Part shown: in pieces, positions 15,364-18,490 of the stretch
Position numbering within the stretch: position 1 is the stretch's first letter
How the letters are laid out: each line of letters begins with the position of its first letter
Assembly (NCBI GenBank): GCA_902604005.1
Contig: CACKXH010000007.1
Span: forward strand, 1-34,159
Direction of reading: 5' to 3'
From: an uncultured Pelagibacteraceae bacterium
Lineage (GTDB): Bacteria > Pseudomonadota > Alphaproteobacteria > Pelagibacterales > Pelagibacteraceae
Length of the DNA: 34,159 bases
Notes under the pieces: model-generated
Database searches by the model: none
The model's input: only the letters and a program-made list of their open reading frames with translations
Told to the model about the DNA's origin: nothing
Made by a program: the position numbers and the translations under genes

Positions 15364-16296
15364 ATGAAAATTAATCTTGCAAATATTAAAAAAGCTCAAA
15401 AACTCTTAAATAAAAGTGAGTGTGTAGCAATACCAACTGAGACTGTTTATGGTCTAGCGGCCAATGCTTACTCAGATACGGCATGTAAAAAAATATACAA
15501 ACTTAAAAAAAGACCCAAAAATAATCCTCTTATAGTCCACTATTTAAATTGTCAAATTTTAAAGAAAGATTGTAGCTTTAATAACAATTTTATTAAACTT
15601 TATAAAAAATTTTGCCCAGGGCCAATTACATTTATTCTAGATTTAAAAAAAAATTCAAAAATTTCTAAAATTGTTACTAACAAGCAAAATACTTTAGCTG
15701 TAAGATTTCCAAAACACCCAATTGCACGAAGTTTATTAAAAAAACTAAATTTTCCTTTAGCAGCTCCCAGTGCCAATTTATCATCTAAAGTTAGTGCTGT
15801 CACTCCTGCTGACGTCAAAGATGATTTTGGTAACAATATTAAATATATTCTTGATGGAGGAAAATCATCTATAGGACTTGAGTCAACTATTATTGATTTA
15901 AGAAATAAACCCAAAATACTAAGATTAGGAGGTTTAGAAACATCAATAATTAAAAAAGCTTTAAATAAAAAAATTATCATAAATAATAATCCCTCAAAAA
16001 TTTCTTCACCTGGTCAATTTAAGATTCATTATTCCCCAGGCATTCCTATAAGATTAAATGTAAAGAAAATTAGAAATGGTGAGGCTTATCTATTGATAAA
16101 GAAAAATAAAAGAACAAAATCAAATTATTATTTTTTGTCAAAAAATGGTAGTTTGAGAGAAGCATCAAAAAATTTGTATAGTACATTGAGAAAAATTAAA
16201 AAAGATAAATATAAATCAATTGCAGTTTGCAAAATTCCTAATAAAGGATTGGGTAAAACTATAAATGATAGATTAATGAGAGCATCTAAATTTTAA
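15364..16296 (+). CDS. tsaC: L-threonylcarbamoyladenylate synthase, Sua5 type
   Basis: Makes threonylcarbamoyl-AMP from threonine, bicarbonate and ATP for the universal t6A37 modification of ANN-decoding tRNAs. The YrdC domain (about 5-195) shows ECVAIPTETVYGLAANAYS, KIYKLKKRPKNNPLIVHY, FCPGPITFIL, LAVRFPKHPIARSLL, LAAPSANLSSKVSAVTPADV and SIGLESTIIDL. A linker with SPGQFKIHYSPG introduces a C-terminal Sua5 domain (about 225-310), so this is the long Sua5 form rather than the single-domain TsaC. At 310 aa it is slightly compact. The stop shares one base with the next ATG (TAATG), so the SGNH gene is coupled to it. Confidence 0.93.
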   Translation: MKINLANIKKAQKLLNKSECVAIPTETVYGLAANAYSDTACKKIYKLKKRPKNNPLIVHYLNCQILKKDCSFNNNFIKLYKKFCPGPITFILDLKKNSKISKIVTNKQNTLAVRFPKHPIARSLLKKLNFPLAAPSANLSSKVSAVTPADVKDDFGNNIKYILDGGKSSIGLESTIIDLRNKPKILRLGGLETSIIKKALNKKIIINNNPSKISSPGQFKIHYSPGIPIRLNVKKIRNGEAYLLIKKNKRTKSNYYFLSKNGSLREASKNLYSTLRKIKKDKYKSIAVCKIPNKGLGKTINDRLMRASKF

Positions 16297-17378
16297 TGAT
16301 AAAAAAATACTCTAAGATTTTTTTGATTAATATTATTATTTTTATCTTTTTTATTGAGCTCTTATCCTATTTATTAACTAAGATTAATATTTTGCCCAAT
16401 GGTCTTCCACCTCATATTACTTTAAATGCACATGAAGATTATAGTTATTGGCATCCAAAAAATTCAGAGTTCAAAATTGCAACAAAGTGCTGGCAATCAA
16501 AAGTTAAGTTTAATAATTTTGGTATTAAAAGTAATGATGATTTAGAAATAACAAAAACCAAAAAAAGAATTGCTATTCTTGGGGACTCAATGACCCAAAA
16601 CTCACAATTAAGTAATGAAAAAGATTTTACTGCAAAGCTACAGAAACTCCTTCCAGATTATGAAATAATTAATTTTTCAATATCATCAGTTGGTTTAGCT
16701 GATCAAATAAATATTTATAATAAATTAGTTAAAAAATTTAATGTAGATTTTGTATTTATGTACGTAACTTATAATGATTTTTCAGATAATCATTATTCAG
16801 ACCAAAGACCAAATAGAGTAACTTATAAAATTGAAAATAATAATATTGTTGAAATCAATATTGACAAAAGTGGTTTTTTTAAAAAATATAATTCTAAATT
16901 AAATAAATTTAAAAGGAATTATTTAATTTATATCAAAAAAATGACCTATTCATTCAAATTATATCATTTTTTAAAATGGGAATATATTTCTTATAAATAT
17001 AAGAAGGGACAAAATTTAAATAAAAAAATTAAAAGTGATGACACCGAAAAGTTATTTAAAGAAAAATATGCTGTCTACAAATATCTTGTTGAAAAAGCAA
17101 ACGATGAAATTTTTATTAATGTTCCTACCTTGATTTTTATGAACTCAGATAACAATAGTTTTATTAAAGAAACAAAAGAAATTAAAGCTATAAAAGAAAT
17201 ATATAAAAATTATAATTTTTATGATCCTAGATTAGAGTTTACTAAATATCTCAAAGATAATGGTATTTTAAAAAAACCTTATCTTGGATATGATTGTGAT
17301 GCCCATTATTCATCTTTAGGGGCAAAATTGTTAGCAAAATTTACATACGATAGATTTAAAGAATTTAATAATAATTAA
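16296..17378 (+). CDS. Membrane-anchored SGNH/GDSL hydrolase-like protein, function unknown
   Basis: I do not recognise a specific family. The protein has one hydrophobic N-terminal segment (about 9-32, rich in Ile, Phe and Leu), probably an uncleaved anchor, then a soluble domain. All four SGNH blocks can be placed: Ser98 in LGDSMTQ, Gly133 in SISSVGLADQ, Asn160 in TYNDFSDN, and the Asp335-x-His337 pair in CDAHYSSLGAKLL. This is the layout of periplasmic SGNH hydrolases or O-acyl-handling (AlgX/AlgJ-like) proteins acting on surface polysaccharides or lipids; the substrate is unknown. It is coupled by TAATG to the Sua5-type gene, with which it has no obvious functional link. It is followed by tRNA-Arg on the other strand. 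Protein composition is very rich in Lys, Asn and Ile. Confidence 0.75.
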   Translation: MIKKYSKIFLINIIIFIFFIELLSYLLTKINILPNGLPPHITLNAHEDYSYWHPKNSEFKIATKCWQSKVKFNNFGIKSNDDLEITKTKKRIAILGDSMTQNSQLSNEKDFTAKLQKLLPDYEIINFSISSVGLADQINIYNKLVKKFNVDFVFMYVTYNDFSDNHYSDQRPNRVTYKIENNNIVEINIDKSGFFKKYNSKLNKFKRNYLIYIKKMTYSFKLYHFLKWEYISYKYKKGQNLNKKIKSDDTEKLFKEKYAVYKYLVEKANDEIFINVPTLIFMNSDNNSFIKETKEIKAIKEIYKNYNFYDPRLEFTKYLKDNGILKKPYLGYDCDAHYSSLGAKLLAKFTYDRFKEFNNN

Positions 17379-17409: not shown

Positions 17410-17486
17410 TGGCGCGCCTGCTAGGAGTCGAACCCAGAACCTCCTGATCCGAAGTCAGGCGCTCTATCCAGTTGAGCTACAAGCGC
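17410..17486 (-). tRNA. tRNA-Arg(TCG)
   Basis: Read on the minus strand: acceptor GCGCTTG pairs with CAGGCGC (one G-T), followed by discriminator G and encoded CCA (17410-17412). The D arm is GCTC-AACTGGATA-GAGC. The anticodon stem CCTGA/TCAGG encloses loop CTTCGGA, giving anticodon TCG, which reads CGA-type arginine codons. The T arm is CTGGG-TTCGACT-CCTAG. It totals 77 bases and all stems are sound. It lies opposite to the flanking genes, 23 bases before rluD. Confidence 0.95.
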
Positions 17487-17509: not shown

Positions 17510-18490
17510 ATGGAAAAAAAAATAAATTTGATTGTTAAAGATGAAGATAAAAACCTTCGTGTTGATGTTTTTATCAATAAAAATAAAACTGATATTAGTA
17601 GGACTAGAGTTAAAAATTTAATTTTAGATAAAAAATTAAAAATAAATAATAGATTAATAGAAGATCCCTCTAAAAAAGTTTTTGGTGGTGATGTTTTAGA
17701 ATTAACAATTCCTAAACCCAAAAAAGCCTCTCTTAAACCCTATAAATATAAACTTGATATTTCTTATGAAGACGAAGATTTAATTGTACTAAATAAACCT
17801 GCTGGAATTGTAATGCATCCTGGGGCTGGTAACTTTGATAACACAATTGTAAATGCTCTTATAAATTATGATGAAAATTCTCTATCAAATATTGGCAATG
17901 AATTAAGACCAGGAATAGTTCATAGAATTGATAAAAATACTTCTGGATTAGTTATAATTGCAAAAAATAATCAAGCTCATGAAAATCTTTCAATTCAGTT
18001 CAGTAAGCATTCAATTATAAGAGTCTATCAATTATTGATTTGGGGGAAAATAAGACCTTCAAAAGGAAGAATTGAAACTTTAATTACAAGAAGCTCTAAA
18101 AATAGGCAAATGATGGAGGTAAGCGCTACTAAAGGAAAAAAAGCGATTACAAATTATACAACATTAGAAATTTTTGAAAATAAAGAAACTCCAACTTTAA
18201 GTTTACTTGAGTGTAAATTAGAGACAGGAAGAACTCATCAAATAAGGGTGCATATGAATCATTGTGGAAACAGTATTGTTGGAGACGATAAATATAAAAA
18301 AAAATTTAAAATGGTAAAAAATATTGATCCAGAACTTGAAAAAAATCTTTCTAATCTTAATAGACAGTTTCTCCATGCAAAAACTATTGGATTTATTCAT
18401 CCAAAAAAAAATAAAGAAATGATTTTTAACTCAATTTTGCCATATGAGCTTGAAATAATTCTAAAAATGCTCAGAAATACAGGTAAATAA
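17510..18490 (+). CDS. rluD: 23S rRNA pseudouridine synthase, RluD-like
   Basis: RluA-family enzyme that isomerises uridines in helix 69 of 23S rRNA during large-subunit maturation. An N-terminal S4 RNA-binding domain (about 15-70, RVDVFINKN, ISRTRVKNLI) precedes the catalytic domain. The latter has VLNKPAGIVMHPGAGN, the active-site Asp141 in HRIDKNTSGLVIIAK, the ETGRTHQIRVHM motif and GDDKY. Length (326 aa) and the S4 domain fit RluD; the related RluC cannot be fully excluded. The rluD-rpoH neighbourhood is familiar from alphaproteobacteria. The space upstream is only 23 bases beyond tRNA-Arg, so its promoter would have to lie in or across the tRNA gene. Confidence 0.9.
   Translation: MEKKINLIVKDEDKNLRVDVFINKNKTDISRTRVKNLILDKKLKINNRLIEDPSKKVFGGDVLELTIPKPKKASLKPYKYKLDISYEDEDLIVLNKPAGIVMHPGAGNFDNTIVNALINYDENSLSNIGNELRPGIVHRIDKNTSGLVIIAKNNQAHENLSIQFSKHSIIRVYQLLIWGKIRPSKGRIETLITRSSKNRQMMEVSATKGKKAITNYTTLEIFENKETPTLSLLECKLETGRTHQIRVHMNHCGNSIVGDDKYKKKFKMVKNIDPELEKNLSNLNRQFLHAKTIGFIHPKKNKEMIFNSILPYELEIILKMLRNTGK

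Follow-up and report, generated by a model that had tools for sequence, protein, structure and literature searches.

Between the genes for Sua5 and an RluD-like pseudouridine synthase, contig CACKXH010000007.1 of an uncultured Pelagibacteraceae bacterium, a marine organism of the SAR11 type, carries a gene for a 360-residue membrane-anchored protein (here P0001), a divergent member of the large and well-known SGNH superfamily, at a place where related genomes usually hold a pair of ATP-binding cassette type 2 (ABC-2) transporter genes. The stretch analysed (the window; 34,159 nucleotides) is the entire contig, and the genome assembly comprises 700,742 bases in 30 contigs and is 67% complete. 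Our best explanation, to which we give about an even chance, is that P0001 is a rare accessory SGNH serine enzyme, tethered to the membrane in the periplasm, that acts as an esterase on an envelope glycan and was acquired by replacement. The ABC-2 pair between Sua5 and tRNA-Arg/rluD would have given way to the SGNH gene; the N-terminal anchor would tether the SGNH domain, predicted to lie on the periplasmic side; and Ser98-His337-Asp335 chemistry would remove or edit ester (acyl) groups, the substrate probably being an envelope glycan. The features of the gene are as follows.

16296-17378, forward strand: open reading frame with an ATG start, encoding the SGNH-type membrane-anchored protein of 360 residues (P0001); SGNH kinship by profile-profile comparison.
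16317-16373, forward strand: N-terminal hydrophobic anchor, residues 8-26, the most hydrophobic window.
16488-16490, forward strand: Cys65, half of the subfamily's cysteine pair, in 9/9 members.
16581-16589, forward strand: block I, Gly96-Asp97-Ser98, with the presumed nucleophile; the profile aligns at GDS to esterase 9otv.
17295-17306, forward strand: block V, Cys334-Asp335-Ala336-His337 (C-D-x-H), a motif found in 8/8 complete members.

P0001 contains blocks I (GDS), II (Gly133), III (Asn160) and V (Asp335/His337) in the canonical S-G-N-H order, and Asp161 is also present; block V is D-x-H, versus the canonical D-x-x-H. The original prediction, made from the DNA alone, had described four SGNH blocks behind an N-terminal anchor, and S98, G133, N160, D335 and H337 are indeed at those positions, with one hydrophobic stretch ahead of them. 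The highest 19-residue Kyte-Doolittle window (2.57) is at residue 8, the maximum beyond residue 45 is 0.79, and a poor AlphaFold2 model (predicted local distance difference test score, pLDDT, 42) has a helix at residues 2-29. Lysine residues ahead of the anchor suggest that the remainder of the protein is periplasmic, which is a predicted topology.

At the level of sequence profiles, kinship with the SGNH superfamily is demonstrated by a comparison of a nine-relative profile (A7) with one of five other anchored SGNH proteins (A8), which matched with 99.3% probability and an E-value of 1.1e-20. The alignment covers 101 columns and blocks I-III, with block V outside it; two of the five A8 proteins exceed the PF00657 cut-off and a third that of PF16822, the last two exceeding neither. 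Some relatives give stronger GDSL and ALGX Pfam matches than P0001, still below threshold. When the profile was compared with PDB sequences, the top match was the lysophospholipase L1-like esterase 9otv (E = 0.0012; GDS region, 37 profile positions), and AlgX (7ula) matched very weakly at block V (E = 0.89). We also considered and rejected a glycosyltransferase 61 identity: this family had the lowest, sub-cut-off Pfam E-value (0.0067), but over one 46-residue stretch, and it was not seen in the relatives at the limits used.

The match to 9otv raises the alternative that P0001 is a lipid esterase or lysophospholipase-like (TesA-like) enzyme acting on membrane lipids, not glycans. TesA entries also occur among the weak Foldseek matches (highest listed probabilities: TesA 4jgg, 0.66, and acetyl xylan esterase 7ddy, 0.63; ranked by E-value, a sugar-binding protein comes first), and one relative, in genome G649, has no sugar neighbours. 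We regard this alternative as decidedly unlikely, because 9otv aligns at the GDS region only, because TesA is a short protein lacking an anchor of this type, an extension or a cysteine pair, and because sugar-type genes (by eye) lie beside most relatives in SAR11.

Nine sequences make up the subfamily, i.e., those of the window, G888, G189, G279, G542, G272, G104, G426 and G649, the last being an alphaproteobacterium of another family. Residues W52-H53, C65, N73, G76, D97-S98, N126-F127, G133, Y141 and D161 are invariant in all nine, while G189 has Ser at the position of Gly96 and G426 has an Asp aligned with Asn160. A cysteine directly precedes the catalytic Asp (C334) in 8/8 complete members, the G189 sequence being cut by a contig end, and C65 is present in 9/9; seven of the eight complete members have no further cysteine beyond this pair. 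Among 14 other sequences block V was found by pattern in 11, with a cysteine before the Asp in 0/11, and three had no pattern match. These features themselves guided the choice of sequences: of 17 genomes found across the order, five were placed in the subfamily and ten among the others, and two were left out (L047, with a run of N, and L048, broken). G888 and G542, from the same-genus search, and G649, from the class search, joined the subfamily later, and the 14 others are the ten plus four from the class-level profile search. That search covered 288 other genomes of the class, 20 of which matched at E ≤ 1e-5; G649 was strong at 9.7e-53 and the next best was 2.4e-13. W-H ... C ... DS ... C-D-x-H is a named and testable signature of the subfamily. 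The two cysteines may well form a C65-C334 disulfide, which would also put the domain in the periplasm.

The gene is accessory, not core, as had been suggested. P0001 had a match in 0/100 near relatives at E ≤ 0.001, and matched in 4/398 other genomes of the same genus at E ≤ 1e-6 (G888, full length; G189, cut by a contig end; G870, broken; G542, remote), with the relatives lying at other genomic places. Across the order, 17/396 other genomes matched at E ≤ 0.01, G189 at 6.4e-43 and the remainder at 9.9e-10 or higher; the near-relative, order and same-genus samples overlap. The best full-length relative, in G888, is 36-38% identical (E = 1.1e-51); this gene and the contig-cut copy in G189 show that the reading frame is no product of chance. 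A pattern scan of an 84,980-species collection, of a kind that finds close relatives only, confirmed one relative, the G189 copy again, in Pelagibacteraceae bacterium AG-430-F16.

The gene could also be a decaying or inactive passenger without function. Members of the subfamily do decay, as in the broken relative of G870 (L141, in-frame stops), and in P0001 Gln replaces the Glu that follows the nucleophile. Set against this, the frame is open for 360 codons at 21.8% G+C, with the catalytic residues and both cysteines retained, and relative to G888 the third codon positions have diverged more than the second (0.579 vs 0.337); we therefore consider decay improbable. The pairwise estimates to G888 for nonsynonymous (dN, 0.66) and synonymous divergence (dS, 1.14) are near saturation and little informative.

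The surroundings of the gene in the window are the following.

15364-16296, forward strand: Sua5-type L-threonylcarbamoyladenylate synthase, the left flank (PF01300 1.4e-57, PF03481 2.2e-15; TIGR00057 above cut-off).
17410-17486, reverse strand: tRNA-Arg(TCG), the right edge of the slot and an integration site in two relatives (scars in loci L098 and L063).
17510-18490, forward strand: RluA-subfamily (RluD-like) pseudouridine synthase, the right flank (TIGR00005 above cut-off; the RluD model below its cut-off).

To compare this interval between genomes, 299 of the same genus (that of the window plus others with a completeness of 70% or more) were searched, with Sua5 matched in 242 and RluD in 256. 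The interval set was built from the best 150 of the 242 Sua5 matches and the best 150 of the 256 RluD matches, which favours nearer relatives. Both genes were listed in 118 genomes, on different contigs in 4 and on the same contig and strand in 114. In 92/114 the interval measures 1550-1700 bases, the length of an ABC-2 ATPase gene (PF00005) plus a permease gene (PF01061), and the pair was present (by tblastn) in 38 fetched loci with an interval of <1,900 bases; these 38 were not a random draw and do not all fall within the 92. The remaining 22 intervals divide into five that are empty except for the tRNA, four with other content and no pair, and 13 with the pair and extra genes; G028 provides a sixth empty interval. 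The four without the pair hold the SGNH gene of the window, a TylF methyltransferase (G112), a GDP_Man_Dehyd-type (GDP-mannose-dehydratase-like) epimerase (G167) and three sugar-type genes (G007). Besides the window there are 16 non-empty deviating intervals, 11 of them with at least one sugar-type gene or methyltransferase of an associated type; gene names without a Pfam or NCBIfam match were assigned by eye, as were these types. The other five hold membrane proteins of unplaced kind (G480, G575 and G533) or other genes (G223 and G294). Further occupants, again by eye, are WecB-like, GT2, FkbM, Gmd and polysaccharide-deacetylase-like. The extra gene of G480 and that of G575 are on the rluD side of the tRNA; loci L099 and L100 have similar membrane proteins of 607 and 604 residues between tRNA-Arg and rluD.

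The original prediction had called for a comparison of this interval across related genomes for presence or absence of the gene. Its accessory nature stood, but plain insertion did not: the ABC-2 pair is missing at the window locus, so the event was a replacement. ABC remnants were sought in the window, and the best match had an E-value of 0.77. In the ten genomes without the pair at the slot the permease was not found elsewhere either (10/10), remote homologues (27-32% identity) appearing in four; two pair-bearing control genomes scored as expected, and among the ten only G112 and G167 are >90% complete. In a tree built from the joined Sua5 and RluD protein sequences of 61 loci plus those of the window, the window falls beside G436, which has the pair, and G265, which has the pair and cargo, so that the swap looks recent and on the window's own branch; the tree is midpoint-rooted, has many short inner branches and carries no support values. 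An assembly chimera, with the SGNH gene brought in from elsewhere in the genome or from another organism, might be suspected in a genome as fragmentary as this one, with its 30 contigs. We find it very improbable, since the flanks agree by score (Sua5 is nearest to G121, G423 and G436, and RluD to G436 and G121), the joins are tight and SGNH relatives exist in the same genus.

The SGNH gene and the Sua5 stop codon overlap by one base (16296, the final base of the stop and the first of the gene), and tRNA-Arg(TCG) lies 31 bases beyond the end of the gene with its 3' end facing it; both arrangements had been predicted and the coordinates agree. The overlap had been taken to couple the gene to one for synthesis of N6-threonylcarbamoyladenosine (t6A), and it would be expected if the SGNH protein were a translationally coupled partner of Sua5 in making t6A or in tRNA biology. 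We give that idea almost no credence: the unrelated ABC ATPase gene starts on the last Sua5 stop base in 19/38 loci and overlaps by four bases in 8/38 (a count that used, among possible start codons, the one closest to the end of Sua5 and so leans towards overlap), and relatives of the SGNH gene sit at other places. Genes after Sua5 tend to be coupled by overlap whatever their identity. Because the unrelated gene overlaps equally in 19/38 loci, the coupling is not meaningful for t6A synthesis, and a functional link to Sua5 was rejected as a property of the slot.

How some genes entered the interval can be seen at two loci. Between the ABC permease, which it directly adjoins, and the cargo lies a 51- or 43-base piece of the 3' half of tRNA-Arg, in L098 (genome G285) and L063 (G019), respectively.

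L098, 2204-2254 as stored, 2451-2501 on the Sua5 strand: stranded tRNA-Arg 3' half.
L063, 2503-2545 on the Sua5 strand: stranded tRNA-Arg 3' half.

The local scores of the tRNA 3' half are 62 in L098 and 56 in L063, and the next best is 24. Scars were found in 2/62 loci, many of which were picked as deviant, so that this is no rate. The complete tRNA of L098 carries a 3' half that differs from the usual one (it is that of L057, and nearly that of L091) and the stranded piece has the usual sequence, which is what site-specific integration would be expected to leave. The altered 3' halves of L057, which has the ABC pair only, and L091, which is empty, are perhaps marks of past integration and excision. 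The suggestion that the tRNA is a landing site thus holds for tRNA-Arg in these two relatives and not for the window copy, where no half-tRNA repeat resembling an attachment (att) site was found (best local score 19). Sought as a phage attachment site, the tRNA-Arg 3' half matched nothing in phage records and had no exact copy in viral contigs. A pelagiphage-like contig carrying a tRNA-Leu att fragment has been described (PMC3861242), and Wilhelm et al. proposed homologous recombination at RNA genes for hypervariable region (HVR) 2 of SAR11 (PMC2217521); papers are cited here and below from the portions of their text that were available.

Two other candidates concerning carriage and role were discarded. 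Phage carriage was rejected, as P0001 and L140 had no match in 50,697 phage records; four scans of viral contigs, which find close relatives only, confirmed none, and the best value in PHROGs was 0.017. PADLOC gave no match, and a defence gene was likewise rejected.

The neighbourhoods of the relatives bear on the substrate. Genes for a group 1 glycosyltransferase and for an asparagine synthase come directly after the G888 relative. The G542 relative ends 15 bases before the gene for an AT3-SGNH fusion (PF01757 1.2e-29, PF19040 1.5e-37). In G279, G104, G426 and G272 the genes around the relative are of methyltransferase, glycosyltransferase, carbamoyltransferase or sugar-nucleotide type (by eye); in G189 an NAD-kinase-like gene precedes it, and DprE1/DprE2-like genes are present on the same contig (by eye). 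The broken copy in G870 (L141, 280-540) is 48% identical over its N-terminal part, then has in-frame stops, and stands beside an xsc-like gene. On balance these contexts support an envelope-glycan role: a part in modifying surface glycans had been proposed, and it fits the neighbours of most relatives and not of all, G649 being the exception.

Seven loci (L078, L081, L083, L084, L086, L087 and L088) have SGNH genes with a carbamoyltransferase gene and one for a small SxtJ-like membrane protein nearby (by eye), and this combination is a repeated cassette in SAR11 relatives.

Several results weigh against reading P0001 as a periplasmic glycan esterase acquired by replacement. No Pfam family was above its cut-off with P0001 (E-values: Glyco_transf_61, 0.0067; Lipase_GDSL_2, 0.013), the bit scores lying below those of the curated models (PF13472, 16.4 of 32.9; PF00657, 14.3 of 23.6), and NCBIfam gave zero matches. 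The AlphaFold2 model, made from a two-sequence alignment, is poor (pLDDT 42; predicted template-modelling score, pTM, 0.37), and Foldseek with this model returned zero matches at E ≤ 0.001. Two residues past the nucleophile, eight other members have Glu and P0001 has Gln. No sugar gene adjoins the SGNH gene in the window, the interval has non-sugar occupants in other genomes (a 237-aa gene in G223 and a 295-aa gene in G294), and the G649 relative (E = 9.7e-53) has no nearby sugar genes, its neighbours being of MetY, cytochrome c and xanthine dehydrogenase type (by eye). With the genome 67% complete, the absence of the ABC pair elsewhere in it is weak, and so are the absence of AT3 from the assembly and of MBOAT (PF03062; 0 matches at E ≤ 0.001). 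AT3 is present in 2/8 subfamily genomes (52-99% complete) and in 5/20 controls (97-100% complete), so there is no association between AT3 and the subfamily.

These AT3 and MBOAT results matter for the alternative that P0001 supplies the SGNH part of an acyltransferase split in two, with an MBOAT or AT3 protein encoded elsewhere passing an acyl group through the membrane for transfer to a surface glycan. Envelope polymers are acylated by MBOAT-SGNH pairs (PMC12148441) and by AT3-SGNH fusions (PMC9833829), the G542 relative lies 15 bases ahead of a gene of the latter kind, and G189 also has AT3, on another contig than its SGNH relative. Yet neither AT3 nor MBOAT was found in the window's own assembly at E ≤ 0.001, G104 (99% complete, one contig; searched for AT3) has a subfamily member and no AT3, and the AT3 of G542 carries its own SGNH domain (PF19040 1.5e-37). 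A split acyltransferase thus appears unlikely. With moderate confidence we prefer an esterase to an acyltransferase, since the genome, at 67% completeness, yielded neither an AT3 nor an MBOAT partner and since the AT3 beside the G542 relative already has an SGNH domain.

The best named models for the subfamily are the LA_2486/LA_2490 family SGNH/GDSL-type esterases (NF047474 and NF047475), which are hypothetical-equivalog models with no stated substrate. L079 matches NF047474 over residues 78-366 (2.1e-8) and L142 matches NF047475 at 3e-6, far under the curated cut-offs (best 33.8 bits vs 300); P0001 and L140 have no match. AlgX and AlgJ (PF16822) are likewise of SGNH type with a D-x-H block V, as in D335-A336-H337 of P0001, and some relatives have sub-threshold PF16822 matches. 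However, AlgX/AlgJ are circularly permuted (H-S-G-N), with GTSYS and a Tyr in place of the block III Asn (PMC4148444, PMC9487903), whereas P0001 has the order S-G-N-H, GDS and Asn160; membership of that family was ruled out by block order and Asn160. In OafB, an AT3-SGNH fusion (PF19040), the SGNH domain is periplasmic and bears a structured N-terminal extension (PMC9833829), and one subfamily relative (G542) is encoded beside such a fusion. Unlike these fusions, P0001 has no AT3 fused to it, one strongly hydrophobic stretch and no PF01757 match at E ≤ 1; OafB D618/H621 have D-x-x-H spacing (PMC9833829), and P0001 has no PF19040 match at E ≤ 1. The PatB/DltD-type partners of MBOAT are separate SGNH proteins that acylate envelope polymers (PMC12148441); P0001 differs in that no MBOAT was found in its own assembly (67% complete).

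At the genomic level, the Sua5-rluD spot appears to be a small site at which surface-sugar genes are exchanged. It resembles HVR1-4 of SAR11 (PMC2217521) in the turnover of surface genes beside structural RNA genes, HVR2 lying between the 5S and 23S rRNA genes (PMC2217521), but it is small, with one to few genes. The tables of HVR1, HVR3 and HVR4 in that paper, and the part of the HVR2 table available, list no gene of the Sua5-rluD interval, and 'Sua5' and 'ABC' have 0 occurrences in the available text. In the open-licence PubMed Central literature, as far as its text was available, we found no description of the site or of these SGNH proteins. Tentatively, and with the odds against it as a whole, the observations may be joined as follows: the interval would be a miniature SAR11-type hypervariable site, apart from the four described, whose default ABC-2 exporter pair has been repeatedly lost, exchanged for or joined by surface-sugar genes, entering partly via tRNA-targeted integration; and in its SGNH occupant a Cys65-Cys334 disulfide beside the catalytic Asp would tie the catalytic loop to the membrane-proximal extension. 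If so, the SGNH activity could depend on periplasmic oxidation, and exporter and editing enzyme would be alternative routes for shaping the surface, perhaps under phage pressure. In any case, a short interval between two core genes of very abundant marine bacteria, in which a transporter pair is kept, lost or replaced (surface-sugar genes being among the replacements) and half-tRNA scars in two genomes show how some genes entered, offers a clean site for gauging how surface genes turn over in SAR11 populations.

At the other end of the window, at the contig end, a NeuB gene (PF03102 1.6e-79, SAF domain; 4-1017) stands beside tRNA-Leu(gag) (1058-1144), and is the window's second surface-sugar gene adjoining a tRNA. 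The SGNH gene had been thought the one accessory gene of the region; that it is accessory stands, and that it is the sole one is doubtful given this gene.

Three further loci show variation near the interval. The next junction, between an rpoH-like sigma factor gene and a purA-like gene, also takes up extra genes: in G024 a radical-SAM-like gene (L064, 4588-5628, Sua5-strand orientation; by eye) and in G032 a filamentous-haemagglutinin-like gene of 1667 aa together with neighbours (L072, 4509-12253, same orientation; by eye). In L076 (G036:C2), at a contig end, Sua5 is in two pieces of opposite orientation ~6 kb apart that surround the sigma factor, rluD and the ABC pair, which points to an inversion or a misassembly.

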